Origin: Siphonodentalium dalli
Taxonomy: Eukaryota > Mollusca > Scaphopoda > Gadilida > Siphonodentaliidae
Direction: 5' to 3'
Length of the DNA stretch: 64,000 nucleotides
NCBI GenBank assembly: GCA_032622095.1
Contig: CP136062.1
Location: 13,295,710-13,359,709 of the forward strand
Part shown: piece after piece, positions 39,201-64,000 of the stretch
How the letters are laid out: each line of letters opens with the position of its first letter
How positions within the stretch are numbered: the first letter of the stretch is position 1
Position numbers and translations under genes: made by a program
Notes under the pieces: generated by a model
Told to the model about the DNA's origin: nothing
Seen by the model: the letters and a program-made list of their open reading frames with translations, nothing else
Databases searched by the model: none

Positions 39201-39361
39201 ATAAGGATTAACTGTCATGTGGACTGTTTTTATGGAGATGTAACCGCGAGGTGAGTGGTCATAACTTGTATGTAAAACCATTCTGGTTTTACACAAGTTA
39301 TGACCACTCACCTCGCGGTTACATCTCCATAAAAACAGTCCGCATGACAGTTAATCCTTAT
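39201..39361. repeat. 161-bp near-perfect palindrome
   Basis: Left arm ATAAGGATTAACTGTCATG..., right arm ...CATGACAGTTAATCCTTAT. The arms are about 78 bp each with only one or two mismatches and a three-to-four-base centre (around ACCATTCTGGT). It also contains GATGTAACCGCGAGGTGAG and its complement. It would extrude as an almost uninterrupted hairpin. No target duplication was identified. It could be a foldback MITE or a recent inverted duplication. Confidence 0.95.
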
Positions 39362-40020: not shown

Positions 40021-40136
40021 TCTGGAATAATGCATAACCTTCGTGTCAGTTGAAGAAAATACTTTTGGTAATTTATTAAATAAATGGACACCCGCAGAGC
40101 CGAAAACCAACACCGGAGCTTGGTGATTGATGATTA

Positions 40137-40981
40137 TCTCATATATATTTTGAAGACCTCTGTCTGTCTGTTTGTCTGTATGTATGTTTGTCTGTCATTA
40201 ATACAAATCTACGATTCTCGACCAATCGGGACGAAACTTGGTACGTGTGTGTAGTTTGACCAGGCGGTGGACGTTGTCGTATTGGCGAACCCGTGCGGCG
40301 CCCACTTTGCGCATGCGCAGACGAGATCTCGGAAACGGGTGGAGCTATCGACTTGAAATTTGCTATGTGAATGCATCTTGCCCAGGATACGAATTTTATC
40401 GGGTCGCCGAGCCCGTACGACGCCAGCTTCGCGCATGCGCAGACCAGATCAAATCTGTTTTACGCCGTTTTGCGCTAATATATTTCAGTTCGGTGCTCAC
40501 AAATCGATTCGATATAGCGCGAATAATAAATTGCCAGTCATATAATTTGCATGGTTAGAATCTGTGGCGCTTCCTCTTTCCAACGATATATCACACGCCT
40601 GTGTCCGTTTAACGTTTCTACCTTAATTATCGGGAAGAACGCAGGACCATGCTTCGGTCATCGAAAAACATTCCGTGAATCTATTACGCCGTCAAGAGAT
40701 CGTGACGTGATCGCGTTTAACTCTTTACCGGCCGATGTCGCGTTAACTCCTCACCGGCCGAGGTATCCGCAAATCAGTCCAGATCTCGAAAACGGGTGGA
40801 GCTATCGACTTGAAATTTGGTATGTGAATGTATCTTGCCCCGGATACGAATTGTATCTGGTCGACGAGCCCGTACGACGCCAGATTCGCGCATGCGCAGA
40901 CCAGATCTCGGAAACAGCTGGAGCTATCGACTTGAAATTTGGTTTTTGAATAGCCCGGACAACGTCGGGCTCATCGGCTAG
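40137..40981 (+). mobile_element. Helitron-like non-autonomous element 1
   Basis: Starts TCTCATATATATTTTGAAGA directly after A (40136) and ends with a 6-bp-stem hairpin (AGCCCG, loop, CGGGCT) followed by CATCGG and CTAG at 40978-40981. A TC start, a terminal hairpin, a CTRR end and no TIRs are the Helitron hallmarks. After the 5' end come a TCTGTCTG-rich stretch and then a 122-bp internal repeat with GAGATCTCGGAAACGGGTGG and GTCGCCGAGCCCGT. A non-repeat insert (about 40449-40785) interrupts the repeats. No Rep/helicase is present. Element 2 follows without any intervening base. Confidence 0.75.
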
Positions 40982-41618
40982 TCTCATATATATTTTGAAG
41001 ACCTCTGTTTGTCTGTCTGTCTGTATGTCTGTCATTTATACAAATCTACGATTCTCCACCGATCGAGACGAAACTTGGTACGTTTGTGTAGTTTGACCAG
41101 GCGGTCGTCGTTGTCGTATTGGCGAGCCCGTGCGACGCCCGTGCAGCGCATGCGCAGACGAGATCTCGGAAACGGGTGGAGCTATCGACTTGACATTTGC
41201 TACGTGAATGTATCTTGTCCCGATACGAATTTTATCGGGTCGCCGAGGCAGTGGGACGCAAGCGTCGGGCATGCGCAGACCAGATCTCGGAAACGGGTGG
41301 AGCTATCGACTTAAAATTTGGTATGTGAATGTATCTTGCACCGGATACGAATTGTATCGGGTCGCCGAGCCCGTGCGACGCCAGTTTCGTGCATGCGCAG
41401 ACGATATCTCGGAAACGGGTGGAGCTATCGACTTGATATTTGGTATGTGAATGTATCTTGCCCCGGATACGAATTTTATCGGGTCGCCGAGCCGGTGCGA
41501 CGCCAGCTTCGCGCATGCGCAGACCAGATCTCGGAAACGGGTAGAGCTATCGATCTGAAATTTGGTTTTTGAATAGCCCGGACAACGTCGCCCGGACAAC
41601 GTCGGGCTCATCGGCTAG
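40982..41618 (+). mobile_element. Helitron-like non-autonomous element 2, joined to element 1
   Basis: Begins TCTCATATATATTTTGAAGA immediately after the CTAG of element 1 and ends with its own hairpin and CTAG at 41615-41618, followed by T. It carries the same 5' block and about four internal 122-bp units. The terminal hairpin is partly duplicated (CCCGGACAACGTCG occurs twice in succession). The flanks of the pair as a whole are A on the left and T on the right, the A|T target of Helitrons. Confidence 0.75.
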
Positions 41619-41736
41619 TTATATATATTTTAGACAGAGTGGGAATAAAGGTTTCCAACTTATCTCTCTTTCAACTTACCCTTGTATAAACGTTCTGTAT
41701 TGTCTAAAATCCATATAATTGCACATACGCTTATGA

Positions 41737-54365: not shown

Positions 54366-56115
54366 ATGGATCCAAATGATTTTAATATACTCTTTTCAAA
54401 CGATGAAATGGGTGACGACGACGACGAATTATTGATGGCAATTGATTTATCATCTGCTGAATACCAATCAGTTAGTTTTGAGGAAGCTCTAGACATTCCA
54501 ATGAGACCAAGAGATAGTGAGATGAAGTCTAGCAGTAGGACTGGCACTGGCAGTATTAACCCTGACAGAACAAACACAACCAATTCAATCACAATGACTA
54601 CTTCTCCCACAAGGCCCACTGCAAAAACAGAATTAGCTGAGAGTTCTTTGAAGAAATCCAGATTTGACAAAAAATCTGAATCCGATATTGCCGCATTAGA
54701 ACAATTCGCGCAATCCAAATCCACAAAAAAGAATACCAAATGGGGTGTGAAATTGTTCACGGAGTGGTGCACGGCCATGGGTCATCACATTAATTTTGAA
54801 ACTATTGATAAACAATCTCTCAATACACACCTCAGGCACTTCTACTGTGAAGCTAAACCAATTAACACCACCCAACGAGCTAAAGTGATGCCGGAAAATC
54901 TTGCTGGCGATTACCTCAAAAACACTCTGATTAATCTCCGAGGAGCACTGAATCGCCATCTTTCAGATTTAAAACGCGATATCGACATCATCAAAGATAA
55001 GGAGTTTAAGCAAAGTAACAAAATCCTGTCCGCAAAGTTGAAACATATGGTACAAACTGGAGTCTCGCGGCCTACAAAACACAAGGCGGTCATAACAGAT
55101 CAAGATCTGAAGAAAATAGTGACATACCTTTCTCATAAAGACTCCCCTATTACACTCCGCCAAAGAGTCTGGTACCTAATTGCCATTCACTATGTTTCAA
55201 GAGGACTTGAGTTCCATGTTCAACTGAAATTGAACTCATTTGAGTTCCTGCAAGATGAGAATGGAAGACTTTATGCTTCCATTAATCACGAAACGCACGA
55301 AAAAAACATATCAAGGTGGCCTGGATTCAAGAGAGAGCACTGCTCAGGACAAGCGTATGTATGCAACATCAGATTCATGCTGTCCCGTGACCGCCCTAAA
55401 ACTACTAATACAGAAAACAGATCCCAACGCTGAATTCTTGTTCAATCAAATAAACGTTGAAATTACAAAATCAATAAACCCCAAGAATGTTAGCATATGG
55501 TACCAGGACGCACCTTTAAAAAAACGGACATTTTCCAATTTCATGACCGACATCTCAAAATCTGCAGGTACGAGCGAAAGATACACATCGCATTGTCTTC
55601 GTGCGATAGCGATTCAACATCTCAATGATGCTGGGTTTGAACTACGTAACATTATGTTCATGAGCGGGCATAGAAATGAGTCATCAATCCGAAGTTACAA
55701 CCGGGAATTCACATCAAAACAAAAGCAACAGTTAAGTGATTCGCTCGCAGAATTAGGCAACAGCACTGTGAGTAAAAATCCCCAATGTGAAACTCATGAG
55801 CATCTAACCTCGACAGAGCAGCGTTATGCTCAAACAAATCCAGCTGCGGCAACGTCTTCCACAATCGCAGATATCAACAATTTGGTCGTCAGTGAAAATG
55901 CTGCTGAAATTCCTGCAAATCAAGCATTACCAACAATCGAAGCAAAGGAAATGGCACCTACGGCTACAGCCCACATAGAAACCTCTCTAACATGCATCGA
56001 GAAAAATTCACAGGCTGCAAACATTTTAGCCCATGGTTTGATGAGCAACTGCAAGCTTAGTTTCAAAAACTGTAACATTTCTTTTGGAGGCAGTAACCAA
56101 GCCAACACAAATTAA
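54366..56115 (+). pseudogene. Crypton-type tyrosine recombinase (DUF3504), one frameshift
   Basis: An intronless gene. The ATG at 54366 has a good context (AAAACATGG). Two overlapping frames, 54366-55433 and one continuing to TAA at 56113-56115, form one protein of about 582 residues if one base in the A7 run at 55300-55306 is disregarded. Residues 1-115: acidic, Ser/Thr-rich, low complexity. About 120-260: core-binding-like helical domain (WGVKLFTEWC, IDIIKDKEFKQSNK) as in ZMYM, QRICH1 and KIAA1958. Catalytic domain: Arg279 (SRGLE), the Lys region at the frameshift, His409-x-x-Arg412 (HCLRA), His435 (SGHRN) and Tyr444 (RSY). All catalytic residues are thus present. The last 110 residues are low complexity, ending NCKLSFKNCNISFGG, a type of tail I would expect on Crypton-related proteins. 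Either a recently inactivated Crypton, a domesticated copy, or intact with an assembly error in the homopolymer. Confidence 0.85.
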
Positions 56116-56384: not shown

Positions 56385-57325
56385 ATCAAACTTTCAATAT
56401 TTTCATCCCGCCATGGAATTCTCGAAACGGAAGTGTGTACGTTTGACCGACTTTCATTTTCTAGTGTTGAAATAGTAGCCATATATTGGATACGTCCATG
56501 AACGTCACTGCATTTCACTCATTTTTCTGGAAACTGACTCCAAATTTGAATGTCTGAAAAATGGGGTAGGGGAAACCATATATGACAAAGTTTCAGAAAA
56601 CATGGACCTTGATGCATTCAACTTTACAATCACCAGCTCATATAAACCTTATTTTTCATAGAGAGTTTACTGCTTCCTGTTTTGATATTCATATTTAGAG
56701 CTACGAACCTTTGTGTTACAACTCGATGGCGAAATGGCGAATCACCATTATTTCTGTGTTGTTCTAGATAACATATTCATAAAATTCTAAATAAACATCT
56801 ACTAAAATAATAAACTTTTTATTATGCAAGAATAATCTACACAAACTGGAATAAAGCAACTCTTTGTCTCCAATGACCAGAATATGGTAACCAGATCATA
56901 AAATTTCACCTACCACTTTATGACCGTTCAAAGTCAGTTTCTTGAAATATGTGTGAAATCCAGTAACTTTTGATGGCATAACCAATGTAATCCTAACTTG
57001 TCCACAATAAATGTTTTAAGGGGAACGTTAAAATGATTTTACACATTAAACACTGCAGTAGTCATTGTTGTTTACTATCGGCATTTTTTAAAGGAGTCAA
57101 TTCTTAGGATTCATAGGGCCATAAGTTGATTTTAGCATATATGTGTTTAGCAATTCCAGCACAGTGTCTTGAACCTACTATACAGGACATATGGATATCA
57201 ATTTATTTAGATGTATGACCTCAAATATGATATTTCATCACATGTGCATATTTAGCAGCATACCCACTAAGAAGGCCATCCCCACATTTAACGTGTTAAA
57301 AGTAGGATTCTTACAATTTATAAAG
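56385..57325. other. No gene recognised
   Basis: AT-rich DNA without genes. CATAGGGCCATAAGTTGATTTT-like sequence near 57115 is an inverted match to 47848-47867. Confidence 0.4.
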
Positions 57326-59265
57326 AGCGACCGTGCTTCAGTCATCCGAAGTGAGAGCTAATAATGAGCATACGTTCTTCAGTCATCCGAAGTGATAGCT
57401 AATAAAGAGCGTCAATGGTTCAGTCTTCCGAAGGGAGAGCTAATAAAGAGCGTCCGTGCTTCAATCATCCGAAGTGAGAGCTAATAAAGAACATACATGC
57501 TTCAGTCATCCATCCGAAGTTATATCTAATAAAGAGCGTCCATGCTTCAGTCATCCGAAGTGATAGATAATAAAGAGCGTCCATGCTTCAGTCATCCGAA
57601 GTGATAGCTAATAAAGAGCGCCCATGCTTCAGTCACTCGACGAGATGATAGCTAATAACGGGCATTCGAGCTTCAGTCGTCCGGAGTGATAGCTAATAAA
57701 GAGCATACGTGTTTCAGTCACCCGAAGTGATAGCTAATAAAGAGCATACGTGCTTTAGTCATCCGAAGTGAGAGCTAATAAAGAGCGTCCGTGCTTCAGT
57801 CATCCGAAGTGAAAGCTAATAAAGAGCGCCCATGCTTCAGTCATCCGAAGTGAGAGCTAATAAAGAGCGCCCATGCTTCAGTCATCAAGAAGTGAGAGCT
57901 CATAAAGAGCATACGTGCTTCAGCCATTCGACGTGATAGCTAATAAAGAGCATACATACTTCAGTCATCCGAAGTGAGAGCTAATAAAGGGAGTTCACGC
58001 TTCAGTTATCCGAAGTGATAGCTAACAAAGAGCGTCCATGATTCAGTCATCCGACGTGAGAGCCAATAAAGAGCGTCAATACTTCAGTCATCCGACGAGA
58101 TAGTTAATAAAGAGCTTCCATGCTTCAGTCATTCGAATTGATAGCTAATAAAGAGCGTACGTGCTTCGGTCATCCGAAGTGATCGCTAATACAGAGCGTC
58201 AATGGTTCAGTCATCCGAAGTGATAGCTAATAAAGAGCATACGTGATTTAGTCATCCGAAGTGATAGCTAATAAAGAGCGTTCATGGTTCAATCACCCGA
58301 AGTGATAGCTAATAAAGAGCGTCCATGCTTCAGTCATTCGAAGTGAGAGCTAATAAAGAGCGTTCATGGTTCAGTCATCCGAAGTGATAGCTAATAAAGG
58401 GCGTTCATGCTTCAGTCATTCGAAGTGAACGTTAATAAAGAGCGTCCAATGTTCAGTCATTCGAAGTGAACGTTAATAAAGGGCGTTCTTGCTTCAGTCA
58501 TCCGACGAGATAGTTAATAAAGAGCGTCCGTGCTTCAGTCATCCGAAGTGATAGCTAATAAAAGGCGCCCATGCTTCAATCATCCGACGAGACAGCTAAT
58601 AAAGAGCGTCCATTGTTCTGTCATCCGACGAGATAGCTAATAAAGAGCGGCAATGGTTCGGTCTTCCGAATTGAACGTTAATAAAGAGCGTCCGTGCTTC
58701 AGTCATTCGACGAGATAGTTAATAAAGAGCTCCCATGCTTCAGTCATCCGAAGTGATAGCTAATAAAGAGCATCCGTGCTTCAGTCATCCGACGAGATAG
58801 TTAATAAAGAGCTCCCATGCTTCAGTCATCCGAAGTGATAGTTAATAAAGAGCTCCCATGATTCAGTCATCCGAAGTGATAGTTAATAAAGAGCGTCCGT
58901 GCTTCAGTCATCCGAAGTGATAGCTAATAAAGAGCGTCCGTGCTTCAGTCATCCGAAGTGATAGCTAACAAAGAGCGTCCGTGCTTCAGTCATCCGACGA
59001 GATAGTTAATAAAGAGCGTCCGTGCTTCAGTCATCCGACGAGATAGTTAATAAAGAGCGTCCGTGCTTCAGTCATCCGAAGTGATAGCTAATAAAGAGCG
59101 TCCATGGTTCAGTCATCCGACGATATAGTTATTAAAGAGCGCCCATGCTTCGGTCATCCGACGATATAGTTAATAAAGAGCGTCCGTGGTTCAGTCATCC
59201 GACGAGATAGCTAATACAGAGTGTTCATGGTTCGGTCACCCGAAGTGATAGCAAATAAACAGCGT
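57326..59265 (+). repeat. 41-bp minisatellite, about 47 copies
   Basis: Head-to-tail copies of a 41-bp unit built of GAGCGTCCGTGCTTCAGTCA then TCCGAAGTGATAGCTAATAAA. CTTC and GAAG in the unit can pair across the TCATCC loop. Variant classes (GACGAGATAGTTAATAAA, AAGTGAACGTTAATAAA, GCATACGTG) are interspersed. Almost every unit carries an AATAAA on the plus strand. Confidence 0.95.
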
Positions 59266-60178: not shown

Positions 60179-60250
60179 CAAATTGTATTATTTAAAAGTA
60201 GGATTTTAACATCTTATAAAAAGCACCCATGCTTCAGTCCAAACTACAAG

Positions 60251-60536
60251 GCTGAGTTCAGTCCCCTCGTTAGGATGGTCTGACAGAGTTAAGTCCCCTC
60301 GTTAGGATGGTCTGACAGTGTTCAATCCTCTCGTTATGATGGTCTGACAGAGTTCAGTCCCCTCGTTAGGATGGTCTGACAGAGTTCAGTCCCCTTGTTA
60401 TGGTGGTCTGACAGAGTTCAGTCCACTCGTTAGGGTGGTCTGACAGAGTTCAGTCCCCTCGTTATGATGGTCTGATAGAGTTTAGTCCAGTCGTTATGAT
60501 GGTCTGACATAGTTCAGTCCGGACTGAACTATGTAT
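60251..60536 (+). repeat. 32-bp minisatellite ending in a palindrome
   Basis: Nine copies of GAGTTCAGTCCCCTCGTTAG followed by GATGGTCTGACA, 32 bp each, ending in the perfect palindrome ACATAGTTCAGTCCGGACTGAACTATGT split around its centre (60509-60536). The preceding AAAAAGCACCCATGCTTCAGTC (about 60214) resembles a unit of the 41-bp array. Confidence 0.9.
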
Positions 60537-60721
60537 TGCATTTTGATGCATTGCAATGCCATTGCCGATTCCATTTCAAAGCCATTCCCGATTCCATTGC
60601 AAATTTGCCCAAATAATCCATTTATAAAATAAAACATCTATGTGGTACCAATTAATCTTCGTTGCTTGTTATTTATGTGGTATGGACACCATAACTTGTA
60701 GTAGCAGTTTATTATACGACT

Positions 60722-60980: not shown

Positions 60981-62153
60981 TCTCATATATATTTTGAAGA
61001 CCTCTGTATGTTTGTCGGTATGTTTGTCTGTATGTTTGTTTGTCATTTATACAAATCTACGATTCTCGACCGATCGGGACGAAACTTGGTACGTGTGTGT
61101 AGTTTGACCAGGCGGTGGACGTTGTGGTATTGGCGAGCCCGTGCGGCGCCCGCTTCGCGAATGCGCAGACGAGATCTCGGAAACGGGTGGAGCTATCGAC
61201 TTGAAATTCGCTATGTGAATGTATCTTGCCCCGGATACGAATTTTATCGGGTCGCCGAGCCCGTGCGACGCCAGCTTCGTGCATGCGCAGACGAGATCTC
61301 GAAAACTGGTGGAGCTATCGACTTGAAATTTGCTATGTGAATGTATCTTGCCCCGGATACGAATTTTATCGGGACGCAGAGCCCGTGCGACGCCAGCTTC
61401 GCGCATGCGCAGACGAGATCTCGGAAACGGTGGAGCTATCGACTTGAAATTTGCTATGTGAATGTATCTTGCCCCGGATACGAATTTTATCGGGTCGCCG
61501 AGCCCGTGCGACACAAGCTTCGCGCATGCGCAGACAAAAGTTATCGGGTCGCCGAGCCCGTGCGACGCCAGCTTCGCGCATGCGCAGACCAGATCTCGGA
61601 AATGGGTGGAGCTATCTACTTGAAATTAGCTATGAGAATGTATCTTGCCACGGATACGAATTTTATCGGGTCGCCGAGCCCGTGCGACGCAAGCTTCGCA
61701 CATGCGCAGACGAGATCTCGGAAACGGGTGGAGCTATCGACTTGAAATTTGGTATGTATCTTGCCCCGGATACGAATTTTATCGGGTCGCCGAGCCCGTG
61801 CGACGCCAGCTTCGCGCATGCGCAGACGAGATCTCGGAAACGGGTGGGGCTATCGACTTGAAATTTGGTATGTGAATGTATCTTGCCCCGAATACGAATT
61901 TTATCGGGTCGCCGAGCCCGTGCGACGCAAGCTTTGCGCATGCGCAGACGAGATCTCGGAAACGGGTGGTGCTATCGACTTGAAATTTGCTATGTGAATG
62001 TATATCTTGCCCCGGATACGAATTTTATCGGGTCGCCGAGCCCGTGCGACGTCAGCTTCGCGCATGCGCAGACCAGATCTCGGAAACGAGTGGAGCTATC
62101 GACTTGAAATTTGGTTTTTGAATAGCCCGGACAACGTCGGGCTCATCGGCTAG
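60981..62153 (+). mobile_element. Helitron-like non-autonomous element 3
   Basis: Same TCTCATATATATTTTGAAGA start, preceded by A (60980), and the same hairpin plus CTAG end (62150-62153). It holds about eight internal 122-bp units; some are shortened, for example a unit of about 50 bp near 61540 (TTATCGGGTCGCC) and one lacking the GTGAATG segment near 61755. No coding capacity. Directly joined to element 4. Confidence 0.75.
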
Positions 62154-62541
62154 TCTCATATATATTTTGAAGATCTCTGTCTGTTTGTATGTCTGTCTGT
62201 CTGTCTGTCCTTAATAAAAATCTACGATTCTCGACCGATCAGGACGAAACTTGGTACGTGTGTGTAGTTTGACCAGGCGGTGGTCGTTGTCGTATTGGCG
62301 GCCCGTGCGACACCCGTGCAGCGCATGCGCAGACGAGATCTCGGAAACGGGTGGAGCTATCGACTTGAAATTTGGTATGTGAATGTATCTTGCCCCGGAT
62401 ACCAATTTTATCGGGTCGCCGAGCCCGTGGGACGCCAGCTTCGCGCATGCGCAGACGAGATCTTGGAAACTGGTTGAGCTCTCGACTTGAAATTTGGTAT
62501 TTGAATGAATCTTGCCCCGGATACGAATTTTAACGGGTCCA
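62154..62541 (+). mobile_element. Helitron-like element 4, lacking its 3' end
   Basis: Starts TCTCATATATATTTTGAAGA immediately after the CTAG of element 3 and has two internal units. It ends in the middle of an internal unit (ACGAATTTTAACGGGTCC) without hairpin or CTAG. Confidence 0.65.
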
Positions 62542-62554
62542 ATGTATTCGTTTA

Positions 62555-63074
62555 TCTCCTATTTATTTTGAAGACCTCTGTCTGTCTGTATGTCTGTCTG
62601 TATGTCTGTATGTCTGTATGTTTGTTTGTCATTTATCTACGATTCTCGACCGATCGGGACGAAACTTGGTACGTGTCTGTAGTTTGACCAGGCGGTCGTC
62701 GTTGTCGTATTGGCGAGCCCGTGCGGCGCCCGCTTCGCGCATGCGCAGACGAGATCTAGGAAACGGGTGGAGCTATCGACTTGAAATTTGGTACGTGTAT
62801 GTAGTTTGACCAGGCGGTCGTCGTTGTCGTATTGGCGAGCCCGTGCGACGCCCGTGCAGCGCATGCGCAGACAAGATATCGGAAACAGGTGAAGCTATCG
62901 ACTTGAAATTTGCTATGTGAATGTATCTTGCCCCAGATGCGAATTTTATCGGGTCGCCGAGCTCGTGCGACGCAAGCTTCGCGCATGCGCAGACCAGATC
63001 TCTGAAACAGGTGGAGCTATCGACTTGAAATTTGATTTTTGAATAGCCCGGACAACGTCGGGCTCATCGGCTAG
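62555..63074 (+). mobile_element. Helitron-like element 5
   Basis: Starts TCTCCTATTTATTTTGAAGA after A (62554), ends with hairpin and CTAG at 63071-63074 followed by T. The 5' block with GGTACGTGT.TGTAGTTTGACCAGG occurs twice (about 62668 and 62791), so part of the 5' region is duplicated. Confidence 0.7.
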
Positions 63075-63094
63075 TATTATATATAATAGTATCA

Positions 63095-63800
63095 TATGGG
63101 AAATCACTATTGTGTTTAAATAAACAGAACACATGCCTCCATTCTGTTTCATATAGGTGTTTTTGATAAACACTAGTGTGTTTTAATACAAGGAACACAT
63201 GGTAAATCACTAGTGTTTTTAAATAAACAGAACACATGCCTGAATACTGTTTCATTTGGGTGTTTTTGATAAACACTAGTTTGTTTTAATAAACGGAACA
63301 CGTGATAAATCACTAGTGTTTTTAAATAAACGGAACACATGCCTGAATACTGTTTCATTTGGGTGTTTTTGATAAACACTAGTGTTTTTTAATACAAGGA
63401 ACACATGGTGAATCACTAGTGTTTTTAAATAAACAGAACACATGCCTGAATACTGTTTCATTTGTGTGTTTTTGATAAACACTAGTTTGTTTTAATAAAC
63501 GGAACACGTGATAAATCACTAGTGTTTTTAAATAAACAGAAAACATGCCTGAATACTGTTTCATTTGTGTGTTTTTGATAAACACTAGTTTGTTTTAATA
63601 AACGGAACACGTGATAAATCACTAGTGTTTTTAAATAAACAGAACACATGTCTGAATACTGTTTCATTTGTGTGTTTTTGATAAACACTAGTTTGTTTTA
63701 ATAAACGGAACACATGATAAATCACTAGTGTTTTTAAATAAACGGAACACATGCCTGAATACTGTTTCATTTGGGTGTTTTTGTGGAACACATGTTTTGC
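63095..63800 (+). repeat. 103-bp tandem array, about seven copies
   Basis: Units of exactly 103 bp in the inner copies. Each unit is itself a diverged dimer: CACTAGTGTTTTTAAATAAA with CAGAACACATGCC, and CACTAGTTTGTTTTAATAAA with CGGAACACGTG. The palindrome CACTAGTG is common. Overlapping open frames on the minus strand reflect the period only. Confidence 0.95.
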
Positions 63801-64000
63801 ATAATCATGTTTTACAGTGTAATTAGTGTTCTTATATTATAATACGGATTGAAACAGCCGCGGAGTCATATTTGATTTAGAGTATCCGACCAGGTTTAAG
63901 TTACCCGATCGTGATTCCGCAGATGTAAGGAATGGAGGCTGTGCATGGGTAGTATGTAAATTGTAGAGCAATAATGAGTTAATACCGCACAATGCACTGC
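63801..64000. other. No feature recognised
   Basis: Unique sequence to the window end. Confidence 0.4.

Follow-up and report, generated by a model that had tools for sequence, protein, structure and literature searches.

Exact end-to-start joints between Helitron transposons occur by the thousand in the genome of the scaphopod Siphonodentalium dalli, and most of them very probably arose when a new copy inserted at the start of the 5' terminal sequence (LTS) of a Helitron already in place, or a few bases into it, with a minority due to concatemers, co-mobilised arrays or local duplication. Consecutive insertion itself was foreseen in outline in 2008 on one maize case; what is new here is its scale, its targeting across families and the insertion order. 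The window is the whole stretch of DNA analysed, 64,000 nucleotides long (contig C2:13295710-13359709 of a 2.23 Gb genome in 9 contigs). A slash between bases marks an insertion point or a joint.

Short Helitrons form two clusters in the window, as read directly from the sequence (Table 1). In both, a unit ending ...GGGCTCATCGGCTAG is fused to one beginning TCTCATATATATTTTGAAGA (40981/40982 in cluster 1, 62153/62154 in cluster 2), and both joints are exact CTAG/TCTC fusions of canonical Helitron ends. The preliminary description had reported the two joints and an outer A and T at each cluster, and reading the sequence confirms all of these (outer flanks at 40136/41619 and 60980/63075). Cluster 2 holds more than had been described, since its second unit lacks the 3' part from about 62541 and is followed, after 13 unrelated bases, by a third Helitron. 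Directly 3' of this cluster lies a tandem array of a 103-bp unit (63083-63897), and other repeats of the window are a 41-bp unit array with at least 39 overlapping register copies (57225-58967 and beyond), a 32-bp unit array (60190-60573) and a foldback element with 69-nt arms that are 99% complementary (39201-39361), the start of which is similar to the right flank of a Helitron insertion elsewhere (L058). At 55240-56115 an ORF encodes a Phage_integrase (tyrosine recombinase) domain; it is adjoined by a 355-aa ORF without Pfam matches (54366-55433), and this is possibly a tyrosine-recombinase transposon.

Table 1. Coordinates of the Helitron units, joints and flanks of the window.
Feature	Position in window	Strand	Basis
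Host A, 5' flank of cluster 1	40136	+	sequence reading
Helitron unit 1, cluster 1, 845 bp; TCTCATATATATTTTGAAGA ... hairpin ... CATCGGCTAG; ~122-bp internal repeats	40137-40981	+	
3' subterminal hairpin AGCCCG-GACAACGT-CGGGCT, 10 nt upstream of element end	40952-40971	+	folding
Exact joint CTAG/TCTCATATAT, cluster 1	40978-40991	+	sequence reading, genome recurrence
Helitron unit 2, cluster 1, 637 bp; subfamily differs from unit 1	40982-41618	+	
Right flank TTATATATATTTTAGA; matches host target motif T-N1-5-TATATA	41619-41634	+	
Helitron unit 1, cluster 2, 1173 bp	60981-62153	+	
Second exact joint CTAG/TCTCATATAT, cluster 2	62150-62163	+	
Helitron unit 2, cluster 2, 3'-truncated	62154-62541	+	
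Helitron unit 3, cluster 2, 520 bp; A before, T after	62555-63074	+	

The family of the window units is here called F1, a name used only in this account. Complete F1 units start with TCTCATATATATTTTGAAGACCTCTGT (one variant TCTCCTATTTATT) and end with AGCCCGGACAACGTCGGGCTCATCGGCTAG, and between these lie a (CTGT/ATGT)n run, a unique segment of about 100 bp and ~122-bp internal repeats in varying number. With its 6-bp stem and 8-nt loop, the 3' hairpin stands 10 nt from the end and is conserved across copies; its fold of -6.4 kcal/mol has only a modest margin, 13 of 200 shuffles folding equally well. The termini are of the canonical 5'-TC / CTRR-3' type (TCTCATATAT...CTAG), with about 17,000 exact genome copies of each end. 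Judged by their sequence, the window units are non-autonomous canonical Helitrons (Helitron1). Helitron identity, as originally assigned, is thus borne out by the termini, the hairpin, the A/T insertion and a Rep/helicase partner, the last two of which are described below.

Counts of ends and joints are exact pattern matches unless otherwise stated, and are therefore lower bounds that include segmental duplicates. There are 17,556 F1 3' ends and 16,922 F1 5' ends genome-wide; CTAG precedes 8,475 (50%) of the latter and A precedes 7,790 (46%), so that F1 joints are about as common as starts after A. With ~96% of exact 5' ends standing after A or CTAG, the element boundaries first proposed hold for the great majority of copies. 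A search with the 30-base joint sequence allowing up to 3 mismatches gives 11,032 genome matches, and the reversed-pattern control gives none; this zero, together with the thousands of joints, rules out chance or assembly artefact as their source. Variant joints are seen as well: three loci (L033, L037, L057) have joints without the final G (CGGCTA/TCTCATATAT), which re-form an A/T site at the 3' edge, and at L026 (C1:19633666-19634227) a 56-bp F1 5' fragment directly precedes a complete F1, as a nested insertion or a doubled 5' terminus.

A profile search for Helitron_like_N gives at least 151 matches in the genome, among which many Rep-helicase ORFs are of 1500-1700 aa and many of 2200-2860 aa; these size classes suggest that Helitron1-like and Helitron2/Helentron-like lineages co-occur. 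The match at C1:13743912(-) falls in a 1613-aa ORF with both a Helitron_like_N/Rep domain (PF14214, 9.3e-56) and a PIF1 helicase domain (PF05970, 5.3e-68). This ORF belongs to an element of 8675 bp, C1:13748219-13739545(-), whose F1 5' end (C1:13748219) is exact and whose F1 3' end (C1:13739545) has one mismatch, and which itself resides within a head-to-tail array of mixed families. The full-length element with the same ends that had been sought is therefore at hand as a candidate, on its domains and termini, for an autonomous Rep (HUH)/PIF1-like helicase partner of F1. Empty sites at AT, likewise sought, are supplied by a host repeat in which the identical position is taken in L059 by a solo F1 and in L092 by an F1 pair: the uninterrupted copy of the repeat in L089 reads ...CAAATGGTATAT... 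across the insertion point, with no duplication and no loss. The paralogous empty site is AA/TGG for solo and pair alike, which confirms A/T insertion without target-site duplication for both.

The absence of a host base at the joints had been taken to speak for concatemers, on the expectation that insertion of one element beside another leaves the A/T rule visible. This expectation fails, since the A/TC junction at the 5' edge of a resident Helitron is already an A/T target; the first T of the resident completes the site, and after a further insertion there the two elements abut directly. An argument of the same form, that an A is to be expected between separate insertions, was made for tandem Helitrons of bats by Pritham and Feschotte as cited in PMC2267711, and was countered there (Du et al. 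2008) with two dissimilar adjacent maize Helitrons, for which a site formed by a host A and a resident T was one option. Rolling-circle replication of Helitrons has been argued from head-to-tail joints in genomes; the argument from the missing A fails here on logic and, for most of the joints sampled, on the data as well.

Consecutive insertion makes a prediction of its own when the newcomer lands within the resident LTS, namely an inner A/T that is restored by joining the flanks, and three loci show it. At L115 the host sequence ...GCAATCA and the bases TCTA are followed by a single F1 unit and then by TACTATATATTTTGAG, and joining the flanks gives A/TCTATACTATATATTTTGAG, an intact LTS of the F3 type (F3-type and F2 denoting elements with the 5' ends TCTATACTATATATTTTGAGAC and variants, and TCTATTATATATTTTGGAAGA, respectively). 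At L116 an F1 array follows the first four bases (TCTA) of an F3-type LTS, and the joined flanks again give TCTATACTATATATTTTGAG; the autonomous F1 element is inserted 11 bases inside another F3-type LTS. Since the joined flanks restore the LTS, the downstream element was resident first at all three loci. Exact joints of F1 followed by TACTATATATTTTGAGA number 252 genome-wide, and among the four of these loci that were fetched the TCTA remnant is present in two (L115 and L116) and absent in L113, which is one of three inner-LTS loci with a readable F1 5' flank; in the sequence fetched for L114 no F1 5' end could be located. The converse order, in which the downstream element inserts second and non-canonically at the G/T edge of the upstream 3' end, was left open for the maize pair, of which some lines have only the upstream element (PMC2267711). 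For the present joints this order is highly improbable in view of the split LTSs with their earlier downstream resident, and of the match of Helitron LTSs to the F1 target motif.

That motif, T-N1-5-TATATA, is matched by 26 of 30 distinct host right flanks, as compared with 1.08% of the A/T sites in the window, and the F1 and F2 LTSs both fit it. On a position weight matrix of host targets the F1 LTS falls in the top 0.4% and the F2 LTS in the top 0.14% of A/T sites; the matrix was given up for the spaced motif because it failed on F3-type LTSs, in which TATATA is shifted. The number of F1/F2 joints expected is 0.33 with random A/T targeting and about 31 with targeting by the motif only, as against 1,800 observed; these expectations assume ~17,000 insertions and 10,012 F2 ends and are rough, and duplications inflate the observed count. 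Among 79 F1 3' ends from C1:1.0-16.7 Mb (one locally amplified cluster excluded, classification hand-corrected from the flanks), 56 (~71%) are followed directly by a Helitron LTS and the other 23 by host DNA.

Joints across families are a further feature. F1 3' ends are fused to F2 and F3-type 5' ends, and other 3' ends (e.g. GGCGGGCTAACCTGCTAG) to F1 5' ends; exact counts genome-wide are 1,800 for F1/F2, 307 for F2/F1 and 502 for F3/F1, and CTAG precedes 5,297 of the 10,012 F2 5' ends. In 32 F1/F2 joints there is no covariation of the partners (Mantel r = -0.07), and thus these joints are mostly separate events and not copies of one composite. Across them the F2 partners have a diversity of 27.5% and F1 of 6.1%; a fixed F1+F2 composite element is rejected on this diversity of F2 and its lack of covariation with F1. 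The same diversities were set aside as proof of age, as many source lineages can yield diversity. Upstream of F1, most F3 copies are diverse (1-25%) and bear no obvious mark of being the younger partner, a point against the order of insertion proposed here.

The same lack of covariation bears on the proposal that a few founding joints were multiplied by arrays transposing as composite units, with the internal 3' end skipped. Helraiser has been shown to bypass its 3' end (reviewed in PMC5148889), and some dimers do recur at two loci, the clearest of them having identical flanks and so being segmental duplications. Among F1-F1 pairs partner covariation across loci is also not evident (r = 0.105, with 75 of 500 permutations as high), and with neither kind of joint showing it, such multiplication has very little probability as the general source.

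Concatemer origin, as originally put forward for the window joints, would require that replication on a circle continue beyond the element's 3' end and that several identical units be inserted in a single event. Precedent exists in the circles with exact CTAG/TC joints that are formed by Helraiser (PMC4778049, PMC5876387). Such neighbours are predicted to be mutual nearest relatives of equal structure, joined within one family only. At both window joints the partners instead belong to different subfamilies, with 78% mismatch at diagnostic sites and an overall divergence of 9.1% and 7.3%, and therefore were not copied from one unit. Neighbours were also compared in a sample of ~285 kb, drawn almost entirely from contig C1, with 61 F1-F1 pairs; the unique 5' segment was used, since the internal ~122-bp repeats caused a gapless repeat scan to fail in ordering the units. 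Mean mismatch in these pairs is 0.33 at 9 subfamily-diagnostic sites as against 0.43 for reshuffled partners (ratio 0.78), and 0.041 against 0.045 at other sites. Four of the 61 pairs lie within 1.5% (0.8% of random pairs) and ten within 2.5% (4.7% of random pairs), the neighbour ranks among the nearest 1% of copies in six, and the lengths are equal in one of 50. Because neighbours resemble each other somewhat more than reshuffled partners do, a part of the joints consists of copies of a single unit, and concatemer-like or locally duplicated joints may make up ~6-20% of the total. The strongest candidate for origin as a true concatemer, or by local duplication, is L006/L007 (C1:8234808-8235847), whose units at 8234808 and 8235464 differ by 2 substitutions in 384 bp and in their internal repeats. 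Most sampled pairs, like those of the window, nevertheless differ at diagnostic sites and in length, and a single unit can yield neither joints across families nor insertions that split an LTS. The concatemer claim may accordingly fit a minority of joints, and as the origin of most of them it is unlikely.

Joints could also be multiplied within the arrays as in satellites, by unequal recombination or local tandem duplication. The segmental duplicates L001 (C1:1025012-1026447) and L030 (C1:22743529-22745353), with flanks ~99% identical in aligned columns, hold 3 and 4 F1 units respectively, and thus the number of units changed after the duplication; amplified blocks are present at C1:31.74-31.76 Mb and C2:103.71-103.80 Mb. 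This process is unable to make a first joint or a joint across families, and neighbours are rarely alike, so that it is quite unlikely to account for the arrays at large.

The favoured course, landing of new copies on resident LTSs, may be pictured as follows. F1 units would be mobilised by the Rep-helicase element with which they share their ends. A resident that begins with TC after a host A offers in its own 5' edge a fresh A/T site followed by TATATA, and a new copy inserted there, whether the LTS is of its own or another family, would give A/new/old/T without an intervening host base; further landings would build head-to-tail arrays, with concatemers, co-mobilised arrays or local duplication adding a minority of the joints. 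By the A/T rule, arrays should grow at their 5' side; a comparison of upstream and downstream ages within the 61 F1-F1 pairs, of low power, gave no significant excess of younger upstream units (29 pairs in the expected direction versus 24, P = 0.30). The transposase would apparently nick the resident LTS as if it were its own initiation site, by the same contacts as at the start of transposition, and the incoming form would likely be a circle with a CTAG/TC joint such as is known for Helraiser (PMC4778049, PMC5876387).

A stronger version, for which the chances appear evenly balanced, is that resident LTSs of own and other families are the transposase's main landing site, comparable to the attachment site of a site-specific system, with one and the same sequence nicked in the CTAG/TC of the circle and in the chromosomal A/TC, and the two exchanged. 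If so, the arrays are ordered records of successive insertions with the newest at the 5' side, and insertions into host DNA are off-target hits on LTS-like sequence. Resident LTSs as the main landing site would bear on target choice, on clustering and on the formation of satellite-like arrays, and Helitron families might limit gene damage by piling onto each other. With joints numbering in the thousands, this genome allows the question of the landing site to be tested.

The F1 system shares a number of features with other Helitrons. Helibat1/Helraiser of bats has the same TC start, CTAG end, 3' hairpin, Rep-helicase transposase and exact CTAG/TC joints, and it inserts at A/T without target duplication, with an AT-rich preference that is strongest beside the transposon 3' end (PMC4778049); unlike in that system, about half of the F1 5' ends here stand in genomic head-to-tail joints, and the joints span families. 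Head-to-tail Helitrons are also known as Myotis bat tandems and plant centromeric arrays (cited in PMC5876387, PMC2267711 and PMC5148889), for which, as cited, rolling-circle amplification is invoked, whereas most neighbours here are not mutual copies. Insertion into or near the 5' end of another Helitron has been considered for the FoHelis of Fusarium (PMC5148889), together with self-insertion and multiple 5' termini, although these have non-canonical Helitron2-like ends and the cases are few. The adjacent maize Helitrons (PMC2267711) are dissimilar elements with an exact G/T joint that were likewise attributed to consecutive insertion; there a single pair was found and its insertion order was left open, whereas S. 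dalli has thousands of joints, and the order can be read wherever an LTS is split.
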